Assembly: GCA_029243485.1 (NCBI GenBank)
Contig: JAQWRY010000088.1
Coordinates: forward strand, 153,221-217,220
DNA: 64,000 nt
Direction: 5' to 3'
DNA from: Candidatus Binatia bacterium
Lineage (GTDB): Bacteria; Desulfobacterota; Binatia; UBA12015
A program made the position numbers and the translations under genes. How positions within the stretch are numbered: position 1 is the first letter of the stretch; each line of letters starts with the position of its first letter. The notes beneath the pieces are model-generated. The model worked only from the letters and a program-made list of their open reading frames with translations, searched no databases and was not told the origin of the DNA. This document shows positions 1-15,857 of the stretch, one piece after another.

Positions 1-192
1 GCCGCCGTCGTAGAGCGTACGCTGCCAGGCCCGGCAGTGCTCGAACCAAACGCGTTCGGCCTCTGGGGTGTGCTTCTGCCCGAAGCCAATCGCTTCGGCC
101 TCGGCGCGCCACGCGAGGCCGTGCGCTTCGAGCCAGGCTCGCGCCTCCGCGCGAAACCTGGCCTCGTCCGTCGTGTCGGCGCGTCGAGTCAC
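1..192 (-). CDS. acyl-CoA dehydrogenase, N-terminal part (runs off window)
   Basis: The first 64 codons of a gene that continues beyond base 1. The peptide opens VTRRADTTDEARFRAEARAW, the usual start of a flavin-dependent acyl-CoA dehydrogenase (helical N-terminal domain, 'eFRaEvRaWL' pattern). The start codon is GTG at 192-190 and overlaps the TGA stop of the upstream acyl-CoA dehydrogenase by four bases (GTGA), so the two are translationally coupled. Adjacent, unequal ACAD genes are typical of the heteromeric enzymes that desaturate steroid and other branched acyl-CoAs. FAD and active-site residues lie outside the window, so the family call rests on the N-terminus and context. Confidence 0.75.
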   Translation of the reverse strand, partial: MTRRADTTDEARFRAEARAWLEAHGLAWRAEAEAIGFGQKHTPEAERVWFEHCRAWQRTLYDGG

Positions 193-1331
193 GGGTGGAT
201 TGTCTCCAACTCGAGCGCGACGCGCTCTCGGTGGAACGCCGGACTTCCGAGAAAGTCGGCATTGAATTGGGCCCGCCGGAGGTAGAGATGCGCGTCGACT
301 TCCCAGGTGAACCCGCTGCCGCCGTGGATCTGAATGTTCTCGAATGCAGCGTCACGGTAGGCATCAGCTACGTAGCTCTTGGCGATACTCGCGACGAAGG
401 GGGCTCGAGCTTCCCCGCGGACGAGGCTCGCGATGGCCTCGTCGGTTGCCGTGCGCGAACCTTCGAACAGGATCCAGAGATCCGCGAGCTTGTGTTTGAT
501 CGCCTGGAACGAGCCGATGGCGCGTCCGAACTGAGTACGCTCGCGGGCAAAGGCAACGGCGGCTTCGACGACAGCGCCGAAGCCGCCCACACTTTCGGCG
601 CAAAGCACGGCCGCGGCCTCCGCGAGCGTCGCCGCGAGTGCGTCGCGCGCGCTCGGGTCGATCTCGATCGTGGGTGCTCGGTGGAAGTCCACCGTCGCGA
701 GACGGCGGGTGCGGTCGAGGGTCTGGAGCCTGCGGCGCGTAACCTCGGGAGCGCTGGGATCGACCGCAACGAGTTGCAGCCGGCCTTCGGGCCCGCCGCG
801 AACGATCACGAGGAGCCGGTCCGCCGAGTGCCCGTCCAGGACAAAGGTCTTCGTTCCCGTCACGGTGCCGCTCTCTTCGTCGCGTGTCATGCAGACCGCG
901 TCGAGATCGAAGCTCCCGTGAGGCTCGACCCAAGCGAGCGTCGCTGTCGTGCCGCGCGCGATCTCAGACAGGAGCTCGTCTCTCGCGCGCCCCGCCGGCG
1001 CGTGGGTCACGGCGCGAGCGGTTAGGATTCCACTTGCGAAGTACGGAGTCGGCGTCAGTGCTCGGCCCAGCTCCTCGGCGACGATCGCAACCTCCGCAAT
1101 GCCGAAGCCCTGGCCGCCGAGGTCCTCGGGGACGGCCAGGCCCGGCAGCGCCATCTCGTTGCACAGTTGCTCCCAGAGTTCCGCACTGAAGCCGTCGTCC
1201 GTTTCCATGCAGCTTCGGACCGCGGGTGGTGGAGCCTCCTTTGCGAGAAAACGACGCAGGGTGTTCCGGAACTCCCTCTGCTCGACCGTTAGGCCCGCGG
1301 CTTCGGTCGCTGTGAACGGTGAGCGGGACAC
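189..1331 (-). CDS. acyl-CoA dehydrogenase
   Basis: 380 residues, the usual length for the family. FAD-dependent alpha,beta-desaturation of an acyl-CoA is the expected reaction. The N-terminal helical domain has the pattern LTVEQREFRNTLRRFLAKEA. The middle carries the beta domain. The C-terminal helical domain has ERTQFGRAIGSFQAIKHKLA (around residue 265), the classic 'R-x-Q-F-G-x-x-I-x-x-F-Q' motif, and IQIHGGSGFTWEVDAHLYLR (around 340), which matches the FAD-binding 'q-hGG-G-t-E' region. The start is GTG, immediately after the TGA of the dehalogenase-like gene (TGAGTG). The stop overlaps the next ACAD start. It is probably one half of a two-subunit ACAD. Substrate unknown. Confidence 0.9.
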   Translation of the reverse strand: MSRSPFTATEAAGLTVEQREFRNTLRRFLAKEAPPPAVRSCMETDDGFSAELWEQLCNEMALPGLAVPEDLGGQGFGIAEVAIVAEELGRALTPTPYFASGILTARAVTHAPAGRARDELLSEIARGTTATLAWVEPHGSFDLDAVCMTRDEESGTVTGTKTFVLDGHSADRLLVIVRGGPEGRLQLVAVDPSAPEVTRRRLQTLDRTRRLATVDFHRAPTIEIDPSARDALAATLAEAAAVLCAESVGGFGAVVEAAVAFARERTQFGRAIGSFQAIKHKLADLWILFEGSRTATDEAIASLVRGEARAPFVASIAKSYVADAYRDAAFENIQIHGGSGFTWEVDAHLYLRRAQFNADFLGSPAFHRERVALELETIHP

Positions 1332-2015
1332 TCAGACGTTCACGGCCGAGCCACCGGCGAAGGGAATGATCTGCCCCGTGATGAAGTTGCTGTTCTCGCT
1401 CGCGAGAAAGAGGGCAAGTTCTGCGCTCTCGCTGCCTTCTGCGAATCGCTCGGTGGGGCAGAGACTTTTCAGGAACGCCTGGAAGCCCTCGCCGTCGACC
1501 TTGTCCTCGGGGTAGTAGTCGGGGTTCTTCACGAAGTTCTGAGCGACCGCGTTGATCTGTACGTTGTGTGACGCCGCCTCGAGGCCGGCGTGCTGTAGGA
1601 ATACGTGCTGGGCGCCCCGTGCGGAAGCGTAGGCCGAGACGGGACCGATCGGGCGGAGCGGCGTCGCGCTCGTGATCGCCACGATCTTCCCGGCGCGGCG
1701 TTCCATCATCTGCGGGAGGACGGCCCGCACGAGGCGCATGAGTGGGTGCACCATGCCGTCGAACGCACCAACCCAGGCTTCGTCCTGGATCTCGACGACA
1801 GGCTGGAGGTCGGCCGGTGTCGAGAGGTTTGCGATCAGGATGTCGACGTGGCCGGCTTCGAGAATGAGCGTGGCGGGTGCCGCGGCGTCGGTCAGATCGC
1901 GCTCGTCCGCGACGACATCCGCACCCTCCTCGCGAAAGAGCGTACAGATGGCCGGTCCCATGTAGTCGCCGGCGCACGTGACGACGGCTCGCTTGCCCGC
2001 AAGGCGCTCTCCCAT
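1332..2015 (-). CDS. halohydrin dehalogenase-like protein (SDR fold)
   Basis: 227 residues with a short-chain dehydrogenase fold, but with the two motifs that separate halohydrin (haloalcohol) dehalogenases from true SDRs. T13-x4-Y18-x-G20 (TCAGDYMG) replaces the glycine-rich NAD(P) loop. The catalytic triad reads S116-x12-Y129-x3-R133, with Arg where SDR reductases have Lys. The stretch ITSATPLRPIGPVSAYASAR aligns by eye with HheC of Agrobacterium (ITSATPFGP...YTSAR). Residues 158-170 (VAQNFVKNPDYYP) sit where HheC has its halide-site loop. These enzymes convert vicinal haloalcohols to epoxides plus halide, and open epoxides with small anions, without a cofactor. The gene lies directly upstream of two ACAD genes with no gap. 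The halogenated substrate is an inference; loss of function or an altered role is possible. Confidence 0.85.
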   Translation of the reverse strand: MGERLAGKRAVVTCAGDYMGPAICTLFREEGADVVADERDLTDAAAPATLILEAGHVDILIANLSTPADLQPVVEIQDEAWVGAFDGMVHPLMRLVRAVLPQMMERRAGKIVAITSATPLRPIGPVSAYASARGAQHVFLQHAGLEAASHNVQINAVAQNFVKNPDYYPEDKVDGEGFQAFLKSLCPTERFAEGSESAELALFLASENSNFITGQIIPFAGGSAVNV

Positions 2016-2069: not shown

Positions 2070-2570
2070 TTAGGGCCGCAGGCCTTGAAGTAGTTTCTCG
2101 CTGCCCGGCTCGGGGACGATTCCGACCAGGACCGCGTGCGTGCCGAGCACATCGACGGAGACGTTCATCCGGTGGGCCTGCGAGTCCACCGTGATCGCCG
2201 CTTCGGCCTTCGCCTCCAGGGCGAGTTCATCGGTGCTAATCGGCGCGTCGGACGGCTCGGTCGGCAGGTACGAACTGAACGACGCCAGGCCGGACACGCC
2301 GCGGGCCGCATTCTCGAGCGCCGAGCGCTCCTCGCCGTTCTTCACCCAGCCGACCAGATAGGCGTGCCCGCCGAAGACGTAAGGGGAGATGGAAAGGGCG
2401 GTGACGGGATCCGCCTCGACGAGTGCCCTGCGCAGCGAGGTCCGCAGCATCTTGTCATGGACGAATGCGAGCGGCTGCTCGGGGTTTCGCGCCGCTTGAA
2501 GCATCCTCCGGTAGGGGAGAAATCCGATCGCCGGAGAGACGCCTGCGGTGAGCAGCATCGTGACCACCAT
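2070..2570 (-). CDS. BON-domain protein, probably exported
   Basis: 166 residues. The N-terminus is hydrophobic (MVVTMLLTAGVSPAIGFL), a signal peptide or anchor. Two BON-like repeats follow: about residues 45-100 (AYLVGWVKNGEERSALENAA) and 115-160 (HAVLVGIVPEPGSEKLLQGL). BON domains occur in OsmY and DolP-type periplasmic proteins that bind membranes. The start chosen is the only ATG that keeps the hydrophobic segment. The frame stays open upstream but has no start codon there, so an N-terminal frameshift is possible. The gene lies between the carboxylase and dehalogenase genes on the same strand, 54 bases upstream of the latter. Confidence 0.6.
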   Translation of the reverse strand: MVVTMLLTAGVSPAIGFLPYRRMLQAARNPEQPLAFVHDKMLRTSLRRALVEADPVTALSISPYVFGGHAYLVGWVKNGEERSALENAARGVSGLASFSSYLPTEPSDAPISTDELALEAKAEAAITVDSQAHRMNVSVDVLGTHAVLVGIVPEPGSEKLLQGLRP

Positions 2571-2809: not shown

Positions 2810-5563
2810 CTAGAGGAGCCCGAGTGTGACTTCGCGGCGACGGGTTGTGATGGTTTCCGGAGACTCCGGTTCGAAGCGCTCATCCGGCTCGATCTTGAAG
2901 ATCGGCTGGCCTTTGGCCACGACCGTCGCGTCCTGATCTACCATGAGGTTCTTCGTGATGGTTCCGGAGAACGGCACGGAGACCTTGTTGAACATCTTCA
3001 TCACCTCGATGATGAAGAGCGGCTCACCGGCCTCGAAGTGATCTCCCACGTCGATGAGCTGAGGCATGTGCGGAGCCTCGCGCGCGTAGAAAGTGCCACC
3101 CATCGGCGTCACGATCTCATCGGCGCTTGCCTGCGGCGGCGGTGCCAGCGCCCGGAGATTCGGAACCATGGCTTCTTCGTCGAGGAATCGCTCCGGGAAC
3201 ACAGGGACGAGGTCGTCGCCGACGGTGATCTCGAGAAAGCCCGAGTGCGCCCCGATTCGAGGGATGAGGAGCATAAGATCGAGTCCGACCTGGAATCCGC
3301 GGTGGGCGGCGACAGCGCGCTTCCACAACTCGTCGTCACCTTCGGTCAGCTTCTTGGACGGCTTCTCCGAAAAGAGTTTCTCGAGCTCGGCCGCCGTCCG
3401 TGCGCCCGTGCGCTTCTCGACCTCGGCATAGAACGCGAGCGCCGAGTCCATGATGTCCTGATCGTGGTCCCAGATGCGCTCGGAGGGCGGCTTCGCGCCG
3501 ACGTGCTCGAGGTCGAGGAATTGGTAGAGCCGTTCGAGGAAGTGCACTGGGTTGTCGACAAATCGGACTTCGCCATCGCCGTGGGCGAACAGGTCGCCGT
3601 CGTATCGGCCGAGGAAGCCTCCAAGGACGTGTGAGTTCTCGAGGAGCTTCGCAATCGGGCGCAGAAGCAGGGTTTGCTTCGTTGCCAGAATCTTGCGCGC
3701 CTCGGCATCGGGCTGCTTCTTCACCAGCTCTGCGACGGCGATGTCGAGATCCACGTCGTCGACGATCTTCTGCAGCGAGCCGACGGCGGCGAGGAAGGGC
3801 TGCATGAACCCGGTGGTCGGTTCGGCCATCACGCCCTTGCCGAGGAACCACTGCACCAGTCCGTAGTGCACCGGGAGGTTCGTCTGCAGGTCATCGCCTC
3901 GCAGGGAGGTGCGGCGAAGAACTTCGGCCATTCGTTCGTAGTTGTCGCGCCGGTTCGTGCCGTCGGTGAGGACGAGCGCGACGTTCGAGTCGTACGCACC
4001 GGCGAGCCGGTAGAAGATGAACGCGCCCGTGTCCGGGTTCCGCGTGCCGATCCCCTGATCGAAGCGGATCTCGCCGGCGATCGGCGGCGACCACGAGCGG
4101 ATCATGCCGCCGGCGTGCGGCTGTAGTGCTTGGTTGGTCGCGTTGATGCGGACCTCGAGACCGGAGACGTTTCGCACCGTGCGTTCGGGCTTGGGCATGC
4201 GATCGCCATGTGACGCGAGCAGGCACATCGCTTCGATCAGGTCCTCGACGTAGTACGATTCCCCGGCATCGTCGGGATTCGTGAACTTCAGCCGGTAGGC
4301 GAGCTCGGTCACGACGTGCTCGACCTGGATCCGGGTGTTCATCTCCATGAAGAAGTGGTCGAAGCCCGAGATGATGCACTCGAAGGTGGAGACCGAGTTG
4401 AGGCCGGTGGCTTCACCGAAGCGCTCGCCCTCTTTCTCCATGCGATCGAGGCAGCCTTTGTCGCCCGTGAGGATCTCGACGGCCTTCTTCTGGCTCGCTG
4501 CGCTCGCGAGCGCGATCTCGGCATCGAGGAGTTCGGCCGTGAGCGAGACTTCCAACAGTTTCTGCTCGTGCATTTGCACCGAGCAATCGCGTCCGCCGAG
4601 GGCGACGCACCAGGAGCCGTTGCCGATGAGCTGGATCTCGTTGTGGCGGGTGCTCTCGATGTTGAGCTCGACCAGGAAGTTCCGATTCGAGCCGGGCTCG
4701 ACGACCTTGGATTCGGCGAGCACATCCATCACGGCCGCATCGATCTCATCGGGCGACGAGACGACGCGCTGGCCCTTCCCGCCGCCGCCGCCGATGTGCT
4801 TGAAGCGGATGCGGTAGCCGGCGTGGCTCTCCCACATCTCGGCGCTGATCGTCGCGGCCATCGCCTGGAGTTCGGCAATTGTGACGAGCTCGACCGTCGC
4901 GCCGTAGGCCTCCTGGAGGAGGTTCTCGCCGTTCTCTTCGACCGTCTGGTCGCCGTCCCACTTGAAGGTGAGATTGTGCCTTTTCGCGAGCTTCTCGAGG
5001 CCGCCTTTGTCCTTCGCGGTCTTGGCGAGTGCGCGCGAGCTGATGTCGTCGACGCCCGGAATGATGGCGTTCCCGAGGCTGCGGGCGAGCTTCTTGGCTT
5101 CGTCCTTGGCGCCGGCTCGGCGCGCGACTTGGGAAGACGGACCTACGAAGCCGAGTCCGGCCTTCTCGATGGCCTCGATGAACTCGGCGTCCTCGGCCAT
5201 GAATCCGTAGCCGGCGAAGAGGTGCGTGTATCCGCGGCTCTTTGCGATTTCGATGATCTCATCGATGCGCTCGAGCTTCTCTTCTTGGCCGCTGCCCATG
5301 TAGTCCGCGACCCGATGGACATTGGAAGGGAAGCGAAGGCTGCGGAGTTCCGGGGCAAGGCAGCGCGCGTACGTGACCGAGTCTTTCTCGGAAAGCAGCA
5401 TGCCGTACTCGCCGACACCGATCCGGTCGAAGACCTCGAAGGCTTCCTGACGGACCGGGCCGCGGCAGACGACGAGGATCTTCATCTCCGCGAGGGAGAA
5501 CGAATCGATCCAGCTGGAACCGGCGTTGCCGGGGGCGATGGGTTCGAGCTTTCGATCCAACAC
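2810..5563 (-). CDS. acyl-CoA carboxylase: fused biotin carboxylase and biotin carrier
   Basis: 917 residues, clearly longer than the usual ~650-670-residue alpha subunits. The N-terminal biotin carboxylase part (from about residue 27, MKILVVCRGPVRQEAF) has an ATP-grasp domain with the glycine loop HIGGGGGKGQRVV and the signature FMEMNTRIQVEHVVTE. An extra ~60 residues sit just before the glycine loop. A ~220-residue linker follows, then a biotinyl domain with EVMKMFNK (biotinylated Lys) near residue 850. It should charge biotin with CO2 for the neighbouring carboxyltransferase, acting on acetyl-, propionyl- or a related acyl-CoA. Start is GTG at 5563 with GGGAG eight bases upstream, 13 bases after the stop of the beta subunit. 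Substrate not determinable by eye. Confidence 0.88.
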   Translation of the reverse strand: MLDRKLEPIAPGNAGSSWIDSFSLAEMKILVVCRGPVRQEAFEVFDRIGVGEYGMLLSEKDSVTYARCLAPELRSLRFPSNVHRVADYMGSGQEEKLERIDEIIEIAKSRGYTHLFAGYGFMAEDAEFIEAIEKAGLGFVGPSSQVARRAGAKDEAKKLARSLGNAIIPGVDDISSRALAKTAKDKGGLEKLAKRHNLTFKWDGDQTVEENGENLLQEAYGATVELVTIAELQAMAATISAEMWESHAGYRIRFKHIGGGGGKGQRVVSSPDEIDAAVMDVLAESKVVEPGSNRNFLVELNIESTRHNEIQLIGNGSWCVALGGRDCSVQMHEQKLLEVSLTAELLDAEIALASAASQKKAVEILTGDKGCLDRMEKEGERFGEATGLNSVSTFECIISGFDHFFMEMNTRIQVEHVVTELAYRLKFTNPDDAGESYYVEDLIEAMCLLASHGDRMPKPERTVRNVSGLEVRINATNQALQPHAGGMIRSWSPPIAGEIRFDQGIGTRNPDTGAFIFYRLAGAYDSNVALVLTDGTNRRDNYERMAEVLRRTSLRGDDLQTNLPVHYGLVQWFLGKGVMAEPTTGFMQPFLAAVGSLQKIVDDVDLDIAVAELVKKQPDAEARKILATKQTLLLRPIAKLLENSHVLGGFLGRYDGDLFAHGDGEVRFVDNPVHFLERLYQFLDLEHVGAKPPSERIWDHDQDIMDSALAFYAEVEKRTGARTAAELEKLFSEKPSKKLTEGDDELWKRAVAAHRGFQVGLDLMLLIPRIGAHSGFLEITVGDDLVPVFPERFLDEEAMVPNLRALAPPPQASADEIVTPMGGTFYAREAPHMPQLIDVGDHFEAGEPLFIIEVMKMFNKVSVPFSGTITKNLMVDQDATVVAKGQPIFKIEPDERFEPESPETITTRRREVTLGLL

Positions 5564-5576
5564 GTGCAGGCTCCCT

Positions 5577-7244
5577 TTACTCGAACTCGCGCTGCGGGCC
5601 GCTCATCGCCGTGGGCGTGTACGTCCTCATGAGAAAATCCAGGTTCTTCGCCAGCACCCGGCGGCTCGTGCCCGGCATGACGATTCGCGAGATGGAGCCG
5701 AGGGACAGCGCTTCCTTCGGGTTCATCAATTCGCGTTCGTAACGATTGGTTAGTTCGGCCAGCGCGGCGTCGCGTTCGGCGGCCGCCTCCTCCTGGGAGG
5801 CGCCGCCCGCGACGGCCTTCTTGTAGGCGGCTTCCGCGGCGCGCATCTCGTTCTTGTAGACAAATTCCTTGCCGCCGCCGGGCCCCATGACCGCGACGCG
5901 TGCATGCGGCATGGTGAAGACGGTGTTAGCGCCGACGAAGTGGGAGTTGTAGCTCGCGTACGCGCCGCCGAACGCGTTGCGAATGATCAACGTCATCGAC
6001 GGGGTGCGGAGGTCGATGATCGAGTCCAGGAACTTCCGACCCTCGAGGACGATGCCGCGGGATTCCTGCTCACTGCCGGGCAGGAAGCCCGTCGTATCCT
6101 CGAGAAAGATCATCGGGATGTTGTAGACGTTGCAGAACCGGATGAATCGGGTGCCCTTCCGTGCGGCGTGGACGTCGATCTGGCCGGACGAGACGTGCGA
6201 GTTGTTGGCCACGAACCCGACGACGTGGCCACCAATACGGCCGAACGCGGTGACGAGGTTGCGCGCGCGAGCCTCCTGCAGCTCAAAGTACTCGCCGTGA
6301 TCGCAGATCTGCTGCATGAACAGCGTGATGTCGAGCGGAGCGTTCATGCCCGCGGGCGAGTTGAACGTCTTCCGGAAGAGGATGTCCTCTTCGACCGTGA
6401 AGCGATCGATGGGGTCGGAGGTCGGCGCGAAGGGTGCGGCGGTGTGATTGTTGTCGGGCAGGTAACCGAGGAGTCGGATCGCCGTTCGGAGCGAGCCCAG
6501 CTCGTCGTTCGTCGTGACGTCGCAGACACCGTTCATTCCGTGGATGCCCGGTCCGCCGAGGTCCTCGGCGGAGACGTCTTCTCCCAGAGCGCTCTTCACG
6601 ACGCCGGGACCGGTCAGCCCGATGAAGGTATCTTCGCACTGGATCATGAACGATCCCTGGCGAGGCAGGTAGGAGCCGCCGCCGGCGTTGTAGCCGAACA
6701 TGAGACTGATGCTCGGCACGACGCCGCTGATCCGGCGTAGCGCAGTGAACGCTTCGCTGTAGCCGTCGAGCCCGCCGACGCCTGCGGGAACGAACGCGCC
6801 CGCGGAGTCGTTCATGCCGATCAGCGGAATGCCGCGCTCACCGGCCATGTAGATGAGGCGAGCGAGCTTCGCGCCGTTCGTCGCGTCCATCGAGCCGGCG
6901 CGCAGAGTGAAGTCGTGTCCGTAGACGGCGACGTCGCGGCCGCCGATGTCGAGGATGCCGCAGACCAGCGAGGCGCCGTCGAGGTTCGGGCCCCAGTTCT
7001 GCCAGAACAGGTTCGGTTCTTTCTCGGTCAGCACTTTGATGCGCTCGAAGACCGTCATCCGGTCCTTGGAGTGCTGAACGCGGATGCGGGCGAGGCCGCC
7101 GCCGTCCATGGGCTTGTCGAGGAGCTCCTGCCCGAGGCTGAGGGCCGCGTCGTACACCGTGCCTCCCGTGTGGACGGGACCCGTGGGGGCAGGGGGCGGC
7201 GCGAAGGGATTGTCCAGCGAATAGGTCGGGTTTGTGGCTTCCAT
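5577..7244 (-). CDS. acyl-CoA carboxylase beta (carboxyltransferase) subunit
   Basis: 555 residues, a complete carboxyltransferase with N- and C-lobes as in PccB/AccD5-type proteins. Evidence includes [20 protein letters not shown] in the N-lobe, the acyl-CoA pocket [20 protein letters not shown], and the C-lobe stretches [15 protein letters not shown] and [13 protein letters not shown] (second oxyanion region). The ATG at 7244 was chosen because GGAG lies five bases upstream; an in-frame extension to 7325 has no such site. The gene is first in the run 7244 to 1 on this strand and lies 13 bases from the biotin-carboxylase fusion, so the two form one enzyme. Divergent to the enoyl-CoA hydratase. 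Confidence 0.93.
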
Positions 7245-7386
7245 GGGTCTCCGATCGGTTCGAGCCCCTCCCTTTAACAAAAGATGCGGGGAAGCCATCC
7301 GAATCCGGACCGGCTCTGTAAGCATCTGAAACTACAGGGAATTCGGACGTCTTTTCATCTCTGGCCGGTGGTGCGAAGGTCGCCCG

Positions 7387-9974: not shown

Positions 9975-10800
9975 CCCGCGCGGTGCAACGAGAAGAGACG
10001 AGCCGCGTTGCCGCGAGCCGTTGATCCTCTCGGCTGCCGTATTGAGGCAGGGAATCTTCTGATAGCACTCGGTCCCCGTCGAGAGGGCGTCGAAGATGTA
10101 CTCGACGTTGAAGTTGCCGGGCGGCCCGAGTGCGCACAGGCCGGAGGGCTCTCCATTCGTGCCCTGGTTTGGTGTTGCCAGGTACTGCGTGTAGGCAGCC
10201 GTGCAGCCGGTGATGGTCGAAGCATCGGTTGCGCCCGCCGTCGGGACGGCCGTGGTGCTCACAGGGAAGCGGACAATGTCGAGGTTCTCGATTCGTGGGT
10301 TCGGGGTCGTCTAGACGAAGTCGTAGTGCGGGAGTGAGTTCGAGAAAACGTAGGCCCAGGTCGAGTCACATTGTGCTTTGACGCACGGGTCCGGCTCCGG
10401 GCCGTCGTTGTCGATCTTGTTCGAGTCCTCGAGCTTCTGGCAGGAGTGGCGCCTTCATGCGCTTGTCGAGGTAGACCCGCGTTGCTTTCCCAGCGTACGT
10501 GATCTGGCACTTTCAGACGTCGGTCTTGTCGCCCTCGACCGGCGGTGCGGAGCCGTACGCGGTGTCGGCGGCGCCGGTTGCTGCGCTGGTGGCGCGGCAG
10601 GCGAGGCAGTTCGCCACGCCGTCGTAGGTCGAGATGCTGGGGACGGTCACATCGCACGGAGCCGGGCAGCTCGCGTACCCGGCTGCTCCCGGGGAAGATG
10701 CCGCTGTGCACGCAGAGGTCGTCTTGCTGAGGCGCGACGCGGCGGCCTTGGTGATTTTAGTGGAGCCCTTCGCCGGGAAGCAGGCGATCGGTCGGATCGT
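9975..10800 (-). pseudogene. decayed gene for a secreted Cys-rich protein
   Basis: Coding signal persists through this 0.8 kb but is broken. From the 5' side, one frame reads ACFPAKGSTKITKAAASRL..., CPAPCDVTVPSISTYDGVAN and CLACRATSAATGAADT, then meets TGA at 10515-10513. It resumes KCQITYAGKATRVYLDKR, shifts frame near 10440 into CQKLEDSNKIDNDGPEPDPC and AYVFSNSLPHYDFV, and meets TAG at 10313-10311. The same frame then continues RIENLDIVRFPVSTTAVP... and CALGPPGNFNVEYIFDALST to about 10020. Two stops plus a shift argue for a degraded gene. The spaced cysteines resemble exported Cys-rich proteins of deltaproteobacterial-type genomes. No function assigned; the boundaries are approximate. Confidence 0.55.
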
Positions 10801-10836
10801 TGCAATCGACGCCGGCGGCGATGTCGTCCGGCAGAC

Positions 10837-11997
10837 TCAGGGGCGCGGGGCGGAGAACCGGCGATCACTCAAGAAGCGGACGTCGGTGAGGCTTTCGAGG
10901 AAGTCGAGAAGGTCGGCCTTCTCCTCTTTCGTCAGGACGAATCCGACGATGAACTCGCTTCGTAGAGGGCTGTCGGAGCCACGGCCGGCATTCGGGCCCG
11001 TTGTGAGGGTGCGCCCGCCGCCGGAATAGTGATCGATCACCTCCTCCAGCGTGGTGATGCTGCCGTCGTGCATGTAGGGGCTGGTGACCGCGACGTTGCG
11101 CAGGGTCGGTGCCTTGAACTGACCCATGTGGTCGGGCTTGGCGGTGATCCGGTGAAGGCCCGTGTCCTCCGCCGGGTATCCGCCGCGACCGTCCACGTTG
11201 TAGAGGCCGGTGTTGTGGAAGCCGAGCCCGGTGCGCGGTGTGCGGTCGTGATCGACGCTATCGCTGAAGTTGAATCCGCCGTGGCAGTGGAAGCACGCCA
11301 GGCGTTCGGAGAAGAAGAGGTCCATCCCGCGAATGGCGCCGGGGGTGAGTGCGGTTTCGTCACCCTGCACGTAGCGGTCGTACGGCGCATCCCCGGAGAT
11401 GAGCATGCGTTCGAAGCTCGCGATGGCGTCGAGGATTCGACGGATCTGCACGGGATCGTCGTCATCGGGGAAGGCCTCGCGGAATCGCGTCACGGTTTCC
11501 GGGTCGGACCGGAGTCGAGCGAGCATTTCCGTGTCGTGCCCGCCCAGCCCCATCTCCGTGGGCCGCTCGCTGAACAGGGCCATCCGCGCCTGCTCCTCGA
11601 GTGAATTCAGGTGAGGATGCGACCAGGTGAGCCTCGAGCTGTACGCGACGTTCGCGAGCGACATCGCGTTTCGCGTATGCACTTCGCCCGTCGCGCCGAT
11701 GGCGCGGGGGCGGCCGTCTGTGAAGGCCAGTCGCTGCACGTGGCAGGTGCCGCAGCTCGTCTCGCCGTTCACCGAGAGGCGTTCGTCGTAGAAGAGGTGA
11801 CGTCCCAGCTCGACCTTCTGCGGCGTGAGCGCGTTTTCGGGGGGGACGCTCGGCACGGGGAAGTGCTCGGGGTGCCACGGGGGAGGGGGGCGGCGCTCGC
11901 AGGCGCTGAGGGCCACTGTGAGAAGCACGAGGCCTCCGAAGACGATCGCGCGCGAGGTCCCGGGGCGGGGCGTGTGAGAGGTAAGGCGTTGGATCAT
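10837..11997 (-). CDS. di-haem cytochrome-c peroxidase / MauG-type lipoprotein
   Basis: 386 residues. The N-terminus is a lipoprotein signal (hydrophobic stretch ending LTVALSAC, Cys lipidated), so it is membrane-anchored outside the cytoplasm. Two c-type haem sites are visible: SCGTCHV (around residue 85) and CFHCHG (around 240). Other family features are KVELGRHLFYDERLSVNGET, PYDRYV and the C-terminal PTLRNVAVTSPYMHDGS. Relatives reduce H2O2 or act as MauG-like oxidases. The ATG at 11997 overlaps the stop of the MFS gene (ATGA). A longer open frame reaching 13521 is the MFS gene read in a wrong frame. Confidence 0.9.
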   Translation of the reverse strand: MIQRLTSHTPRPGTSRAIVFGGLVLLTVALSACERRPPPPWHPEHFPVPSVPPENALTPQKVELGRHLFYDERLSVNGETSCGTCHVQRLAFTDGRPRAIGATGEVHTRNAMSLANVAYSSRLTWSHPHLNSLEEQARMALFSERPTEMGLGGHDTEMLARLRSDPETVTRFREAFPDDDDPVQIRRILDAIASFERMLISGDAPYDRYVQGDETALTPGAIRGMDLFFSERLACFHCHGGFNFSDSVDHDRTPRTGLGFHNTGLYNVDGRGGYPAEDTGLHRITAKPDHMGQFKAPTLRNVAVTSPYMHDGSITTLEEVIDHYSGGGRTLTTGPNAGRGSDSPLRSEFIVGFVLTKEEKADLLDFLESLTDVRFLSDRRFSAPRP

Positions 11998-14135: not shown

Positions 14136-14801
14136 CTACTCTTGAGGCAGATCGTGCGGAGTGCCTGGGAGCCGTGCCAGGAAAGCGTGCAGGTCCGGGG
14201 CAAGCGGCGCCTTGATATCGAGCACGCGGCCGGTCGTTGGGTGCGGGAGGTTGAGGCGGCGCGCGTGCAAGAATAATCGAGGGAGCCCGTACAAATCTCG
14301 AAGACGTTGGTTGATGCGTCCCTTGCCGTACCGCGTGTCACCGATGATCTGGTGCGCAAGGTGCGCGAGATGTCGTCGGATCTGATGGCGCCTGCCCGTG
14401 TGAAGCCGGACTTCGAGAAGGGAGCAGCGACTCATCTCTGCGAGCCGACGGAACTCGGTCCACGCTTCTTGGGGCCGTCCCGCCTCGGAATGCAGAGGGC
14501 GCCGGCTCTCGAACGCTTCCTCGGTCGAGCCGCGCACCAGGGCAAGGTACGTCTTCCTCGTCTCGGGCCCAGTGATGCAGGCCTGCGCCGCCGCAGCCGC
14601 TTCCTTGTCGAGGGCGAAGAGAACGACGCCGGATGCGGCACGGTCCAGGCGGTGGACCGGGTAGATGTACGCCCCGATCTGGTCGCGCACGAGCTGGAGG
14701 AGGGCGGTGGAATCACTCGCCTCGGCGCTGCGGTGGACGAGGAGCCCCCCGGGCTTGTCGACCGCAACGAAGCGGTCGTCGCGATACAGGACCGGGATCA
14801 A
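14136..14801 (-). CDS. truC: RluA-family tRNA/rRNA pseudouridine synthase (TruC-like)
   Basis: 221 residues. The catalytic motif HRLDRAASG with its Asp is at residues 50-58, preceded by VAVDKPGGLLVHRS, the standard RluA-family opening. The conserved ETRKTYLALVRG and GRRHQIRRHLAHLAHQIIGD stretches follow. Length and the absence of an S4 domain fit TruC (uridine-65 of tRNA) better than RluC or RluD. The start appears to be TTG, directly after the TAA of the upstream ACAD (TAATTG), so it may be translated by reinitiation. Its place at the end of an ACAD operon is probably incidental. Confidence 0.85.
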   Translation of the reverse strand: MIPVLYRDDRFVAVDKPGGLLVHRSAEASDSTALLQLVRDQIGAYIYPVHRLDRAASGVVLFALDKEAAAAAQACITGPETRKTYLALVRGSTEEAFESRRPLHSEAGRPQEAWTEFRRLAEMSRCSLLEVRLHTGRRHQIRRHLAHLAHQIIGDTRYGKGRINQRLRDLYGLPRLFLHARRLNLPHPTTGRVLDIKAPLAPDLHAFLARLPGTPHDLPQE

Positions 14802-15857
14802 TTACCTGGAGGTGACCAGCGGCCAGATCTCTCCGCCATGGTCGCCCTGAACGGCATCCCCGAGCTCTTCGGCCCATTCGTCGGCGAGCCCGAACTCGGC
14901 GCGCCACGCCCACAGTCGTCGGGTCGAAAAGTGAAGCGAATGCTCGTAGGTGAAGCCGATCGCCCCGTGGACCTGGTGGGCGATTCGGGGGCCTAGCTCG
15001 GCGGCGTCGCCGACGACGACCTTGGCGCAGGCGATCTCGAACGCGGGGTCTCCGGCGGTCCCGACCCGCCCTTGGATCCCCGCGTGCGCTTCGGTCGCCG
15101 CGCGGAACGCGATCTCGGTAGCGGTAGTCGCCTCCGCGACCTGGCCGGCGAGGCGGGCGAGCTCCTGCTGGATGATTTGGAAGTTTCCGATGGGTCGCCC
15201 GAACTGTACGCGCTCGGTGGCGTAGAGCACGGACTGGTCGAGGATGCGCTCGAGGGCGCCAGTCATCTGTCCGGCGCGAAGCAGGGCTCCGTAAGTACGA
15301 ACCGTGTTCGCCGCGAGATCGCACGGCCCGAGGACCGGCGCTTGGTTACCGAGGGTAAGGGTGTCGCGCGGATCGAGGGCCAGGTTGTGCCCCTCGGTGA
15401 CCGCGAGCCCGGAGCGCGGGAGGCACGCGACTCGGGCGACGCCTTCGCCGCCGGCGACGAGGCCGACCAAGTGACCGGCGGCGCGTCCCCACGGTACGCG
15501 TTCGAGCTGCGCGCCGACCTCGGCTTGGAAGGGTACCGGTACGAGGCCGAGCGGACCGCTCGGGATCTCGAGTCCGCTGCGCTCGAGCAGCCACGTTGCC
15601 AGAATCGTCTCGACGAGCGGCAGGGGAACGGAGTGACGTCCCGCAGCTCGCGCGATCTCGAAGACGTCGAGCCAGTCCCCGTCTGCGCCGCCGTTGTCGG
15701 CTCGAAGCAGCGCGCGCGTGAGGCCCGTCTCTTCGACGGCGTCCCACAGATGGTTAGGCCAGGAGCCGCTCTCGGCCTCGGCAAGGCTCTCGGCATCGAT
15801 GGAATCGGCGAAGAGACGTTCGACGGTCTCCGCGATCATGCTGCGAGCTTCACTCAT
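14802..15857 (-). CDS. acyl-CoA dehydrogenase, smaller partner of an ACAD pair
   Basis: 351 residues, slightly short for the family. The C-terminal domain has ERVQFGRPIGNFQIIQQELA and HQVHGAIGFTYEHSLHFSTR, the two best-conserved ACAD blocks. The central beta domain is degenerate (no clear S-G-S-D loop). This pattern is common in the non-catalytic or half-site subunit of heteromeric ACADs. The ATG at 15857 overlaps the stop of the larger ACAD (ATGA). The subunit role is inferred from the overlap and from comparison with steroid-type alpha2beta2 ACADs. Confidence 0.88.
   Translation of the reverse strand: MSEARSMIAETVERLFADSIDAESLAEAESGSWPNHLWDAVEETGLTRALLRADNGGADGDWLDVFEIARAAGRHSVPLPLVETILATWLLERSGLEIPSGPLGLVPVPFQAEVGAQLERVPWGRAAGHLVGLVAGGEGVARVACLPRSGLAVTEGHNLALDPRDTLTLGNQAPVLGPCDLAANTVRTYGALLRAGQMTGALERILDQSVLYATERVQFGRPIGNFQIIQQELARLAGQVAEATTATEIAFRAATEAHAGIQGRVGTAGDPAFEIACAKVVVGDAAELGPRIAHQVHGAIGFTYEHSLHFSTRRLWAWRAEFGLADEWAEELGDAVQGDHGGEIWPLVTSR

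Follow-up and report, generated by a model that had tools for sequence, protein, structure and literature searches.

A predicted halohydrin dehalogenase gene joined to a putative heteromeric acyl-CoA dehydrogenase pair in a Binatia genome

Introduction

Halohydrin dehalogenases (HHDHs), which turn halogen-bearing alcohols into epoxides, are in wide use as biocatalysts, and their role in nature is an open question. They are told apart from the SDR family of oxidoreductases by two fingerprints, T-x4-F/Y-x-G rather than T-G-x3-G-x-G, and S-x12-Y-x3-R, in which Arg stands for the SDR Lys (PMC11976700, PMC4989007). In these enzymes the Tyr acts as base, the Arg lowers its pKa, the Ser holds the substrate oxygen, and a halide pocket occupies the place where an SDR binds nicotinamide (PMC4989007, PMC11976700). 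A review from 2016 knew of no more than two HHDH genes that share an operon with an epoxide hydrolase gene (PMC4989007).

We analysed a stretch of 64,000 nucleotides from a Candidatus Binatia bacterium (contig JAQWRY010000088.1), referred to below as the window, in which an initial annotation had described a halohydrin dehalogenase-like gene. The features that bear on the analysis are as follows.

1332..2015, minus strand: HHDH-type gene, 227 aa, ATG start, open reading frame confirmed
Sites in the HHDH-type protein: nucleophile-pocket motif at residues 13-20; catalytic Ser116, Tyr129 and Arg133; AQN at residues 158-160, replacing the SDR PG motif
189..1331, minus strand: predicted small acyl-CoA dehydrogenase (ACAD) subunit, 380 aa, GTG start
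1..192, minus strand: 5' end of the predicted large ACAD subunit, which is complete (413 aa) at genome position C88:152171-153412, past the window edge
2070..2570, minus strand: BON-domain gene, upstream flank
2810-5563, minus strand: biotin carboxylase/BCCP gene, flank
5577-7325, minus strand: carboxyltransferase gene, flank

Results

Both HHDH fingerprints are present and the SDR cofactor features are lost

The first motif of the window protein reads TCAGDYMG from residue 13 (T13-x4-Y18-x-G20; T13-CAGD-Y18-M-G20) and the second reads SATPLRPIGPVSAYASAR from residue 116 (S116-x12-Y129-x3-R133), both at the residues that the initial annotation had assigned to them. We aligned the protein with proven HHDHs and ordinary SDRs. 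At the positions of the SDR motifs TGxxxGxG, NNAG, YxxxK and PG it carries TCAGDYMG, ANLS, YASAR and QN, respectively, and some 26 residues of the dinucleotide-binding half are missing; HheB and HheD show the same losses of NNAG, PG and this segment. Both HHDH motifs occupy homologous positions in nearly all relatives retrieved and in HheA2, HheB, HheC, HheD2 and HheD8; the first lapses in two relatives, with V for Y in L020 and S for T in L088. All 11 ordinary SDRs, of which seven come from the window genome, carry YxxxK and have neither HHDH motif. Given that the motifs are kept in relatives and proven HHDHs and are absent from the 11 SDRs, their presence in the window protein is not a matter of chance, and the HHDH family features can be read directly from the sequence.

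Comparison with solved structures pointed to the same family. A phmmer search of the PDB returned HheD2 (4e-56), HheD8 (1.6e-54) and HheB (2.5e-51), with all further matches at 2.7e-27 or weaker. Over the aligned parts the window protein is 44.6% identical to HheD2, 44.0% to HheD8, 43.9% to HheB, 35.6% to HheC and 28.1% to HheA2. An AlphaFold2 model built from nine sequences (pLDDT 86.8, pTM 0.89) retrieved B- and D-type HHDHs at all of ranks 1-9 in Foldseek and at ranks 1-4 in VIA-align (Z 32.4-33.1, rmsd 1.4-1.6, 221-223 residues), where other SDR-fold chains reached a Z of 29.8 or less. HheG structures ranked far lower than the B and D types in the sequence and fold searches alike.

We then placed the protein in a maximum-likelihood tree of 37 proteins, including the 11 SDRs and leaving out subtypes E, F and G. 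All HHDHs split from the SDRs with support of 100/99 and the window protein fell on the HHDH side, so that the phylogeny called for in the initial annotation did not yield the contrary result it had named, a firm position among NAD(P)-dependent SDRs. Types B and D share a branch (100/98). The window protein sits outside and beside it, grouped with relatives from its own class, from the Polyangiaceae and from the class to which an Ilumatobacter MAG belongs. The internal order of this group is poorly supported, and a topology constraint holding its nine proteins together was not rejected (p-AU 0.164). In this tree, drawn without E, F and G, the window HHDH lies outside the B and D subtypes, and we claim no new subtype. 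Taken together, the motifs, the loss of SDR cofactor features, the nearest solved structures, the predicted fold and the tree strongly support the label 'halohydrin dehalogenase-like', and the predicted gene product is very likely an HHDH. With these fingerprints, halohydrin dehalogenation is its likely reaction; sequence and structural model together argue strongly for HHDH chemistry.

The HHDH gene and two ACAD genes form a compact unit

On the minus strand, the HHDH gene is followed by the small and then the large ACAD gene. The HHDH stop codon TGA runs directly into the GTG start of the small ACAD gene with zero gap (1334-1329), and the stop of the small ACAD gene overlaps the start of the large one by the four bases GTGA (192-189), in agreement with the earlier description of an HHDH gene abutting two coupled ACADs. 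The small subunit finds its best solved match in Tcur3481 (6wy8_A, 1e-27), the large one in Tcur3483 (6wy8_B, 6e-43) and 4x28_A; Tcur3481 and Tcur3483 are the two subunits of a heteromeric ACAD of the steroid type. As aligned by phmmer, the large subunit carries a Glu in the column of the NHERV/NHERI glutamate, which we take to be the catalytic base of such ACADs. The locus shows the arrangement by which heteromeric steroid-type ACADs are recognized, namely two adjacent fadE-like genes, each closest to one subunit of a known heteromer. On sequence grounds we predict that the pair forms a heteromeric alpha2beta2 enzyme, a type that serves for bulky acyl-CoAs with rings or branches. Against the curated models of IpdE2, PimC and PimD the ACADs score well under cut-off (201.5, 191.1 and 120.4 bits vs 450, 623.85 and 652.7, respectively), too low to name a substrate; the small subunit is under every NCBIfam cut-off, with IpdE2 and PimD nearest.

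A sister genome keeps the flanks without the three genes

G001, a congeneric species, has a genome that is collinear with the window genome over some 25 kb at ~73-81% DNA identity. Its gene order runs enoyl-CoA hydratase, carboxyltransferase (90% protein identity), biotin carboxylase (87% identical), BON (a 52% relative), P450 (77%), enoyl-CoA hydratase and acyl-CoA synthetase, and the trio is absent. In the window genome a convergent P450 gene follows the large ACAD gene, and the interval from the BON stop codon to that of P450, some 58 bases in G001, is ~3.36 kb, filled by the trio. This empty junction shows that the three genes are present or absent together. The carboxylase and BON genes do precede the HHDH gene on one strand, as had been reported. 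Since G001 keeps them without the trio, they lie outside the evolutionary unit, and a single carboxylase-BON-HHDH-ACAD unit was rejected on the same synteny. The initial view of a gene embedded in an acyl-CoA catabolic operon thus holds for the two ACADs but not for the carboxylase and BON genes.

Further members of the genus and family that we examined do not keep the BON-P450 junction, so the choice between gain here and loss in G001 is made by parsimony; by that reasoning, as comparable HHDHs are few and close ACAD relatives absent among the genomes searched (see below), the trio was probably gained by this lineage. We found no repeats bounding it, and its GC of 0.671 is close to that of the flanks, leaving no marks of a mobile element. 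A second ACAD pair, PimC/PimD-like but under the cut-offs, is encoded with an acyl-CoA synthetase 4-8 kb beyond the trio (genome C88:145807-148227; L009:5808-8228), in DNA that G001 also keeps.

The arrangement has no counterpart in the genomes scanned

No HHDH-ACAD-ACAD operon was found among 118 relatives, 395 genomes of the phylum, 395 of the L027 class, 318 of the L025 class and plasmids, nor in a contig scan with two peptide patterns, which was not exhaustive. The search of other genomes for the same neighborhood, proposed at the outset, hence returned no second trio in these sets. A comparable HHDH occurs in seven of the 118 relatives' genomes, the window genome included, with the best other at 54%. 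Across named genomes, additional genome sets and plasmids we recovered around 20 HHDH relatives at 41-57%, none of them with the same ACAD pair, and relatives of the trio ACADs elsewhere reach only 40-48%, with none in the class above 47%. We also looked for an SDR-ACAD-ACAD operon common within the class, as a source from which the HHDH might derive, and saw none at 12 ACAD loci, a comparison with few SDR references that a distant SDR could escape. The literature search returned nothing on an HHDH with an acyl-CoA dehydrogenase beyond incidental mention, and nothing on one with phenylacetyl-CoA. The enzyme kind itself is known; it is the joining of an HHDH to an ACAD pair that is without counterpart in the genomes scanned or the literature found.

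Elsewhere in the genome of the window are two EHN epoxide hydrolase genes (on C73 and C47), both unlinked to the trio, one of them 63% identical to the epoxide hydrolase partner in L031 described below. A class II haloacid dehalogenase (HAD type II) gave no match above the cut-off in this genome. Consistent with the initial statement that neither an epoxide hydrolase nor a haloacid dehalogenase is adjacent, the trio has neither an epoxide hydrolase gene nor a halogen gene linked to it. The genome is rich in ACADs, with about 80-100 first-look candidates, so an ACAD neighbor on its own is weak evidence.

Relatives of the HHDH have varied gene partners

The partners of the HHDH relatives are single instances, mostly on draft contigs, with no formal background rate. 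PaaABCDE makes a CoA-linked epoxide. In the class of the Ilumatobacter MAG, one contig (L127:258-5385) carries paaA, B, C, D and E, an SDR gene and an HHDH gene (48%) on the same strand; paaA-E are all above curated cut-offs and the HHDH start codon overlaps the SDR stop. A paaX-like gene is divergent there, and a CoA-transferase III gene and two ACAD genes lie further upstream. In the case of the closest relative (57%; L126:7585-10020), a gene for a methylmalonyl-CoA-mutase N-domain protein begins 18 bp downstream, while a haloalkane dehalogenase gene lies ~4 kb away (14238-15152). At L129:3426-5183 a haloalkane dehalogenase gene (NF002043, above cut-off) adjoins an HHDH relative and is divergent from it.

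Epoxide hydrolases are a further kind of partner. In two near-copies from gammaproteobacterial MAGs (L030 and L031, around 10001-11874) an EHN epoxide hydrolase gene lies directly downstream of a B-type HHDH gene. On the conjugative plasmid pSA2 of Novosphingobium resinovorum (NZ_CP017077.1; L088:13805-15678) the HHDH gene starts 11 bp after an EHN epoxide hydrolase gene, in a cluster that also holds a PQQ-dependent alcohol dehydrogenase, an aldehyde dehydrogenase and an ACAD-family gene. The pSA2 HHDH is annotated merely as 'SDR family oxidoreductase'. EHN genes occur somewhere in six of the eight genomes holding such HHDH relatives.

At L025:3-1462 the stop codon of an alkyl-sulfatase dimerisation-domain gene overlaps the start of the HHDH relative. 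This neighbor might hint at sulfated halogenated lipids; literature support for a chlorosulfolipid connection was not found, and we treat it as a lead only. As the partner genes differ from one HHDH relative to the next, no single pathway is conserved.

Discussion

We consider it rather probable that the cofactor-free HHDH and the ACAD pair make up a catabolic unit for a bulky halogenated (or epoxidised) carboxylic acid, handled as its CoA ester. In such a unit Tyr129, its pKa lowered by Arg133, would deprotonate a vicinal halo-alcohol whose oxygen is held by Ser116. The alkoxide would then displace the halide to give an epoxide, in a reversible reaction, with the halide leaving into the pocket that replaces the NAD(P) site (the T13-G20 and A158-N160 loops). 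The HHDH gene appears laid out for co-transcription with the heteromeric ACAD genes. The HHDH may clear the halohydrin as an epoxide, which an epoxide hydrolase encoded elsewhere (of the EHN family, on C73 or C47) could open, and the ACAD pair would desaturate the acyl-CoA for beta-oxidation. The joint action with the ACADs, the substrate and the order of steps are what we infer from this layout. The initial annotation had suggested that the gene serves either a pathway for a halogenated acid or a step that forms or opens an epoxide on a molecule linked to CoA or a precursor; by analogy with relatives whose neighbors are PaaABCDE, an acyl-CoA mutase, haloalkane dehalogenases or epoxide hydrolases, this idea has become more plausible.

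Other readings of the locus differ in what they ask of the HHDH. It may be a true HHDH whose work in vivo involves no halogen and consists mainly in opening or processing epoxides carried by a CoA-linked or precursor molecule. The paaABCDE-SDR-HHDH run of L127, with its two ACADs and CoA-transferase upstream, points in that direction, as does the acyl-CoA mutase gene just downstream of the HHDH in L126, and the 2016 review does not rule out other physiological functions for HHDHs (PMC4989007). However, the haloalkane dehalogenase genes that adjoin the HHDH gene in L129 and lie close to it in L126 argue for halogen chemistry, the L127 case comes from a single contig of a single draft genome, and known HHDH sites are buried and reached through a tunnel (PMC4989007), with access for a CoA ester being hypothetical; we regard a halogen-free role as possible but unlikely. 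We judge similarly the proposal that the HHDH acts alone to detoxify small haloalcohols and stands before the ACAD pair incidentally. The partners of HHDH relatives are many and unrelated, or absent altogether, the genome abounds in ACADs, and HheA-C stem from haloalcohol degraders (PMC4989007), all of which would suit such an enzyme, but the abutting and overlapping genes of the trio and their joint absence from the collinear sister genome speak against an incidental position.

Far less probable than either is that the protein is an NAD(P)-dependent SDR of the ordinary kind, such as a hydroxyacyl-CoA dehydrogenase following the ACAD step in beta-oxidation. The protein does have the SDR fold, and Pfam adh_short_C2 and generic SDR models match it. 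Yet the generic NCBIfam matches are all far below cut-off, every cofactor-binding feature is gone, Arg has taken the place of Lys, and both the tree and the structure ranking favor an HHDH. We rejected an ordinary SDR on the motifs, the alignment and the tree.

A bolder and quite speculative proposal is that this branch of HHDHs is native to CoA-ester catabolism. Its members would act on acyl-CoA or acid intermediates, where they would make or open epoxides whether or not a halide takes part, and would be plugged into varied pathways through the ACAD pair here, a PaaABCDE-type epoxidase in L127 and an acyl-CoA mutase in L126. If this were true, the halohydrin activity used in industry would be one face of a wider native role. 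Relatives with defined partners, whether an ACAD pair, PaaABCDE, an acyl-CoA mutase, a haloalkane dehalogenase, an alkyl sulfatase or an epoxide hydrolase, make HHDH function testable by substrate, and those outside the B and D subtypes are new candidate enzymes for biocatalysis. The main interest of the window HHDH lies in its partners and not in the kind of enzyme it is.

Comparison with known systems

HheC and HheA2 have the motifs and fold of the window HHDH but differ in identity (28-36% over the aligned part) and belong to a separate branch; HheC moreover shares an operon with an epoxide hydrolase (PMC11976700), unlike the window gene. The HHDHs of pSA2, L030 and L031 are closer, at 50% to the window protein, yet they group with HheB in the tree and have an epoxide hydrolase in their operons where the window operon has none. 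For the ACADs, the Tcur3481/3483 enzyme (6wy8) and 4x28 provide the best solved matches, with adjacent genes and a Glu at the base column of the large subunit. The window ACADs are nonetheless distant from them (E 1e-27 and 6e-43) and fall outside the IpdE2, PimC and PimD families, the likeness being one of sequence. Of the solved HHDHs, HheD2 (7b73), HheD8 (8xxb) and HheB (4zd6) come nearest to the window HHDH: they have in common with it both motifs, the S-Y-R triad, the AQN/AQH loop and a 222-230 residue SDR fold without a cofactor site, and they are 44-45% identical to it. The window HHDH differs in lying outside the B+D branch, amid mixed relatives, and in having a predicted heteromeric ACAD pair as its partners.
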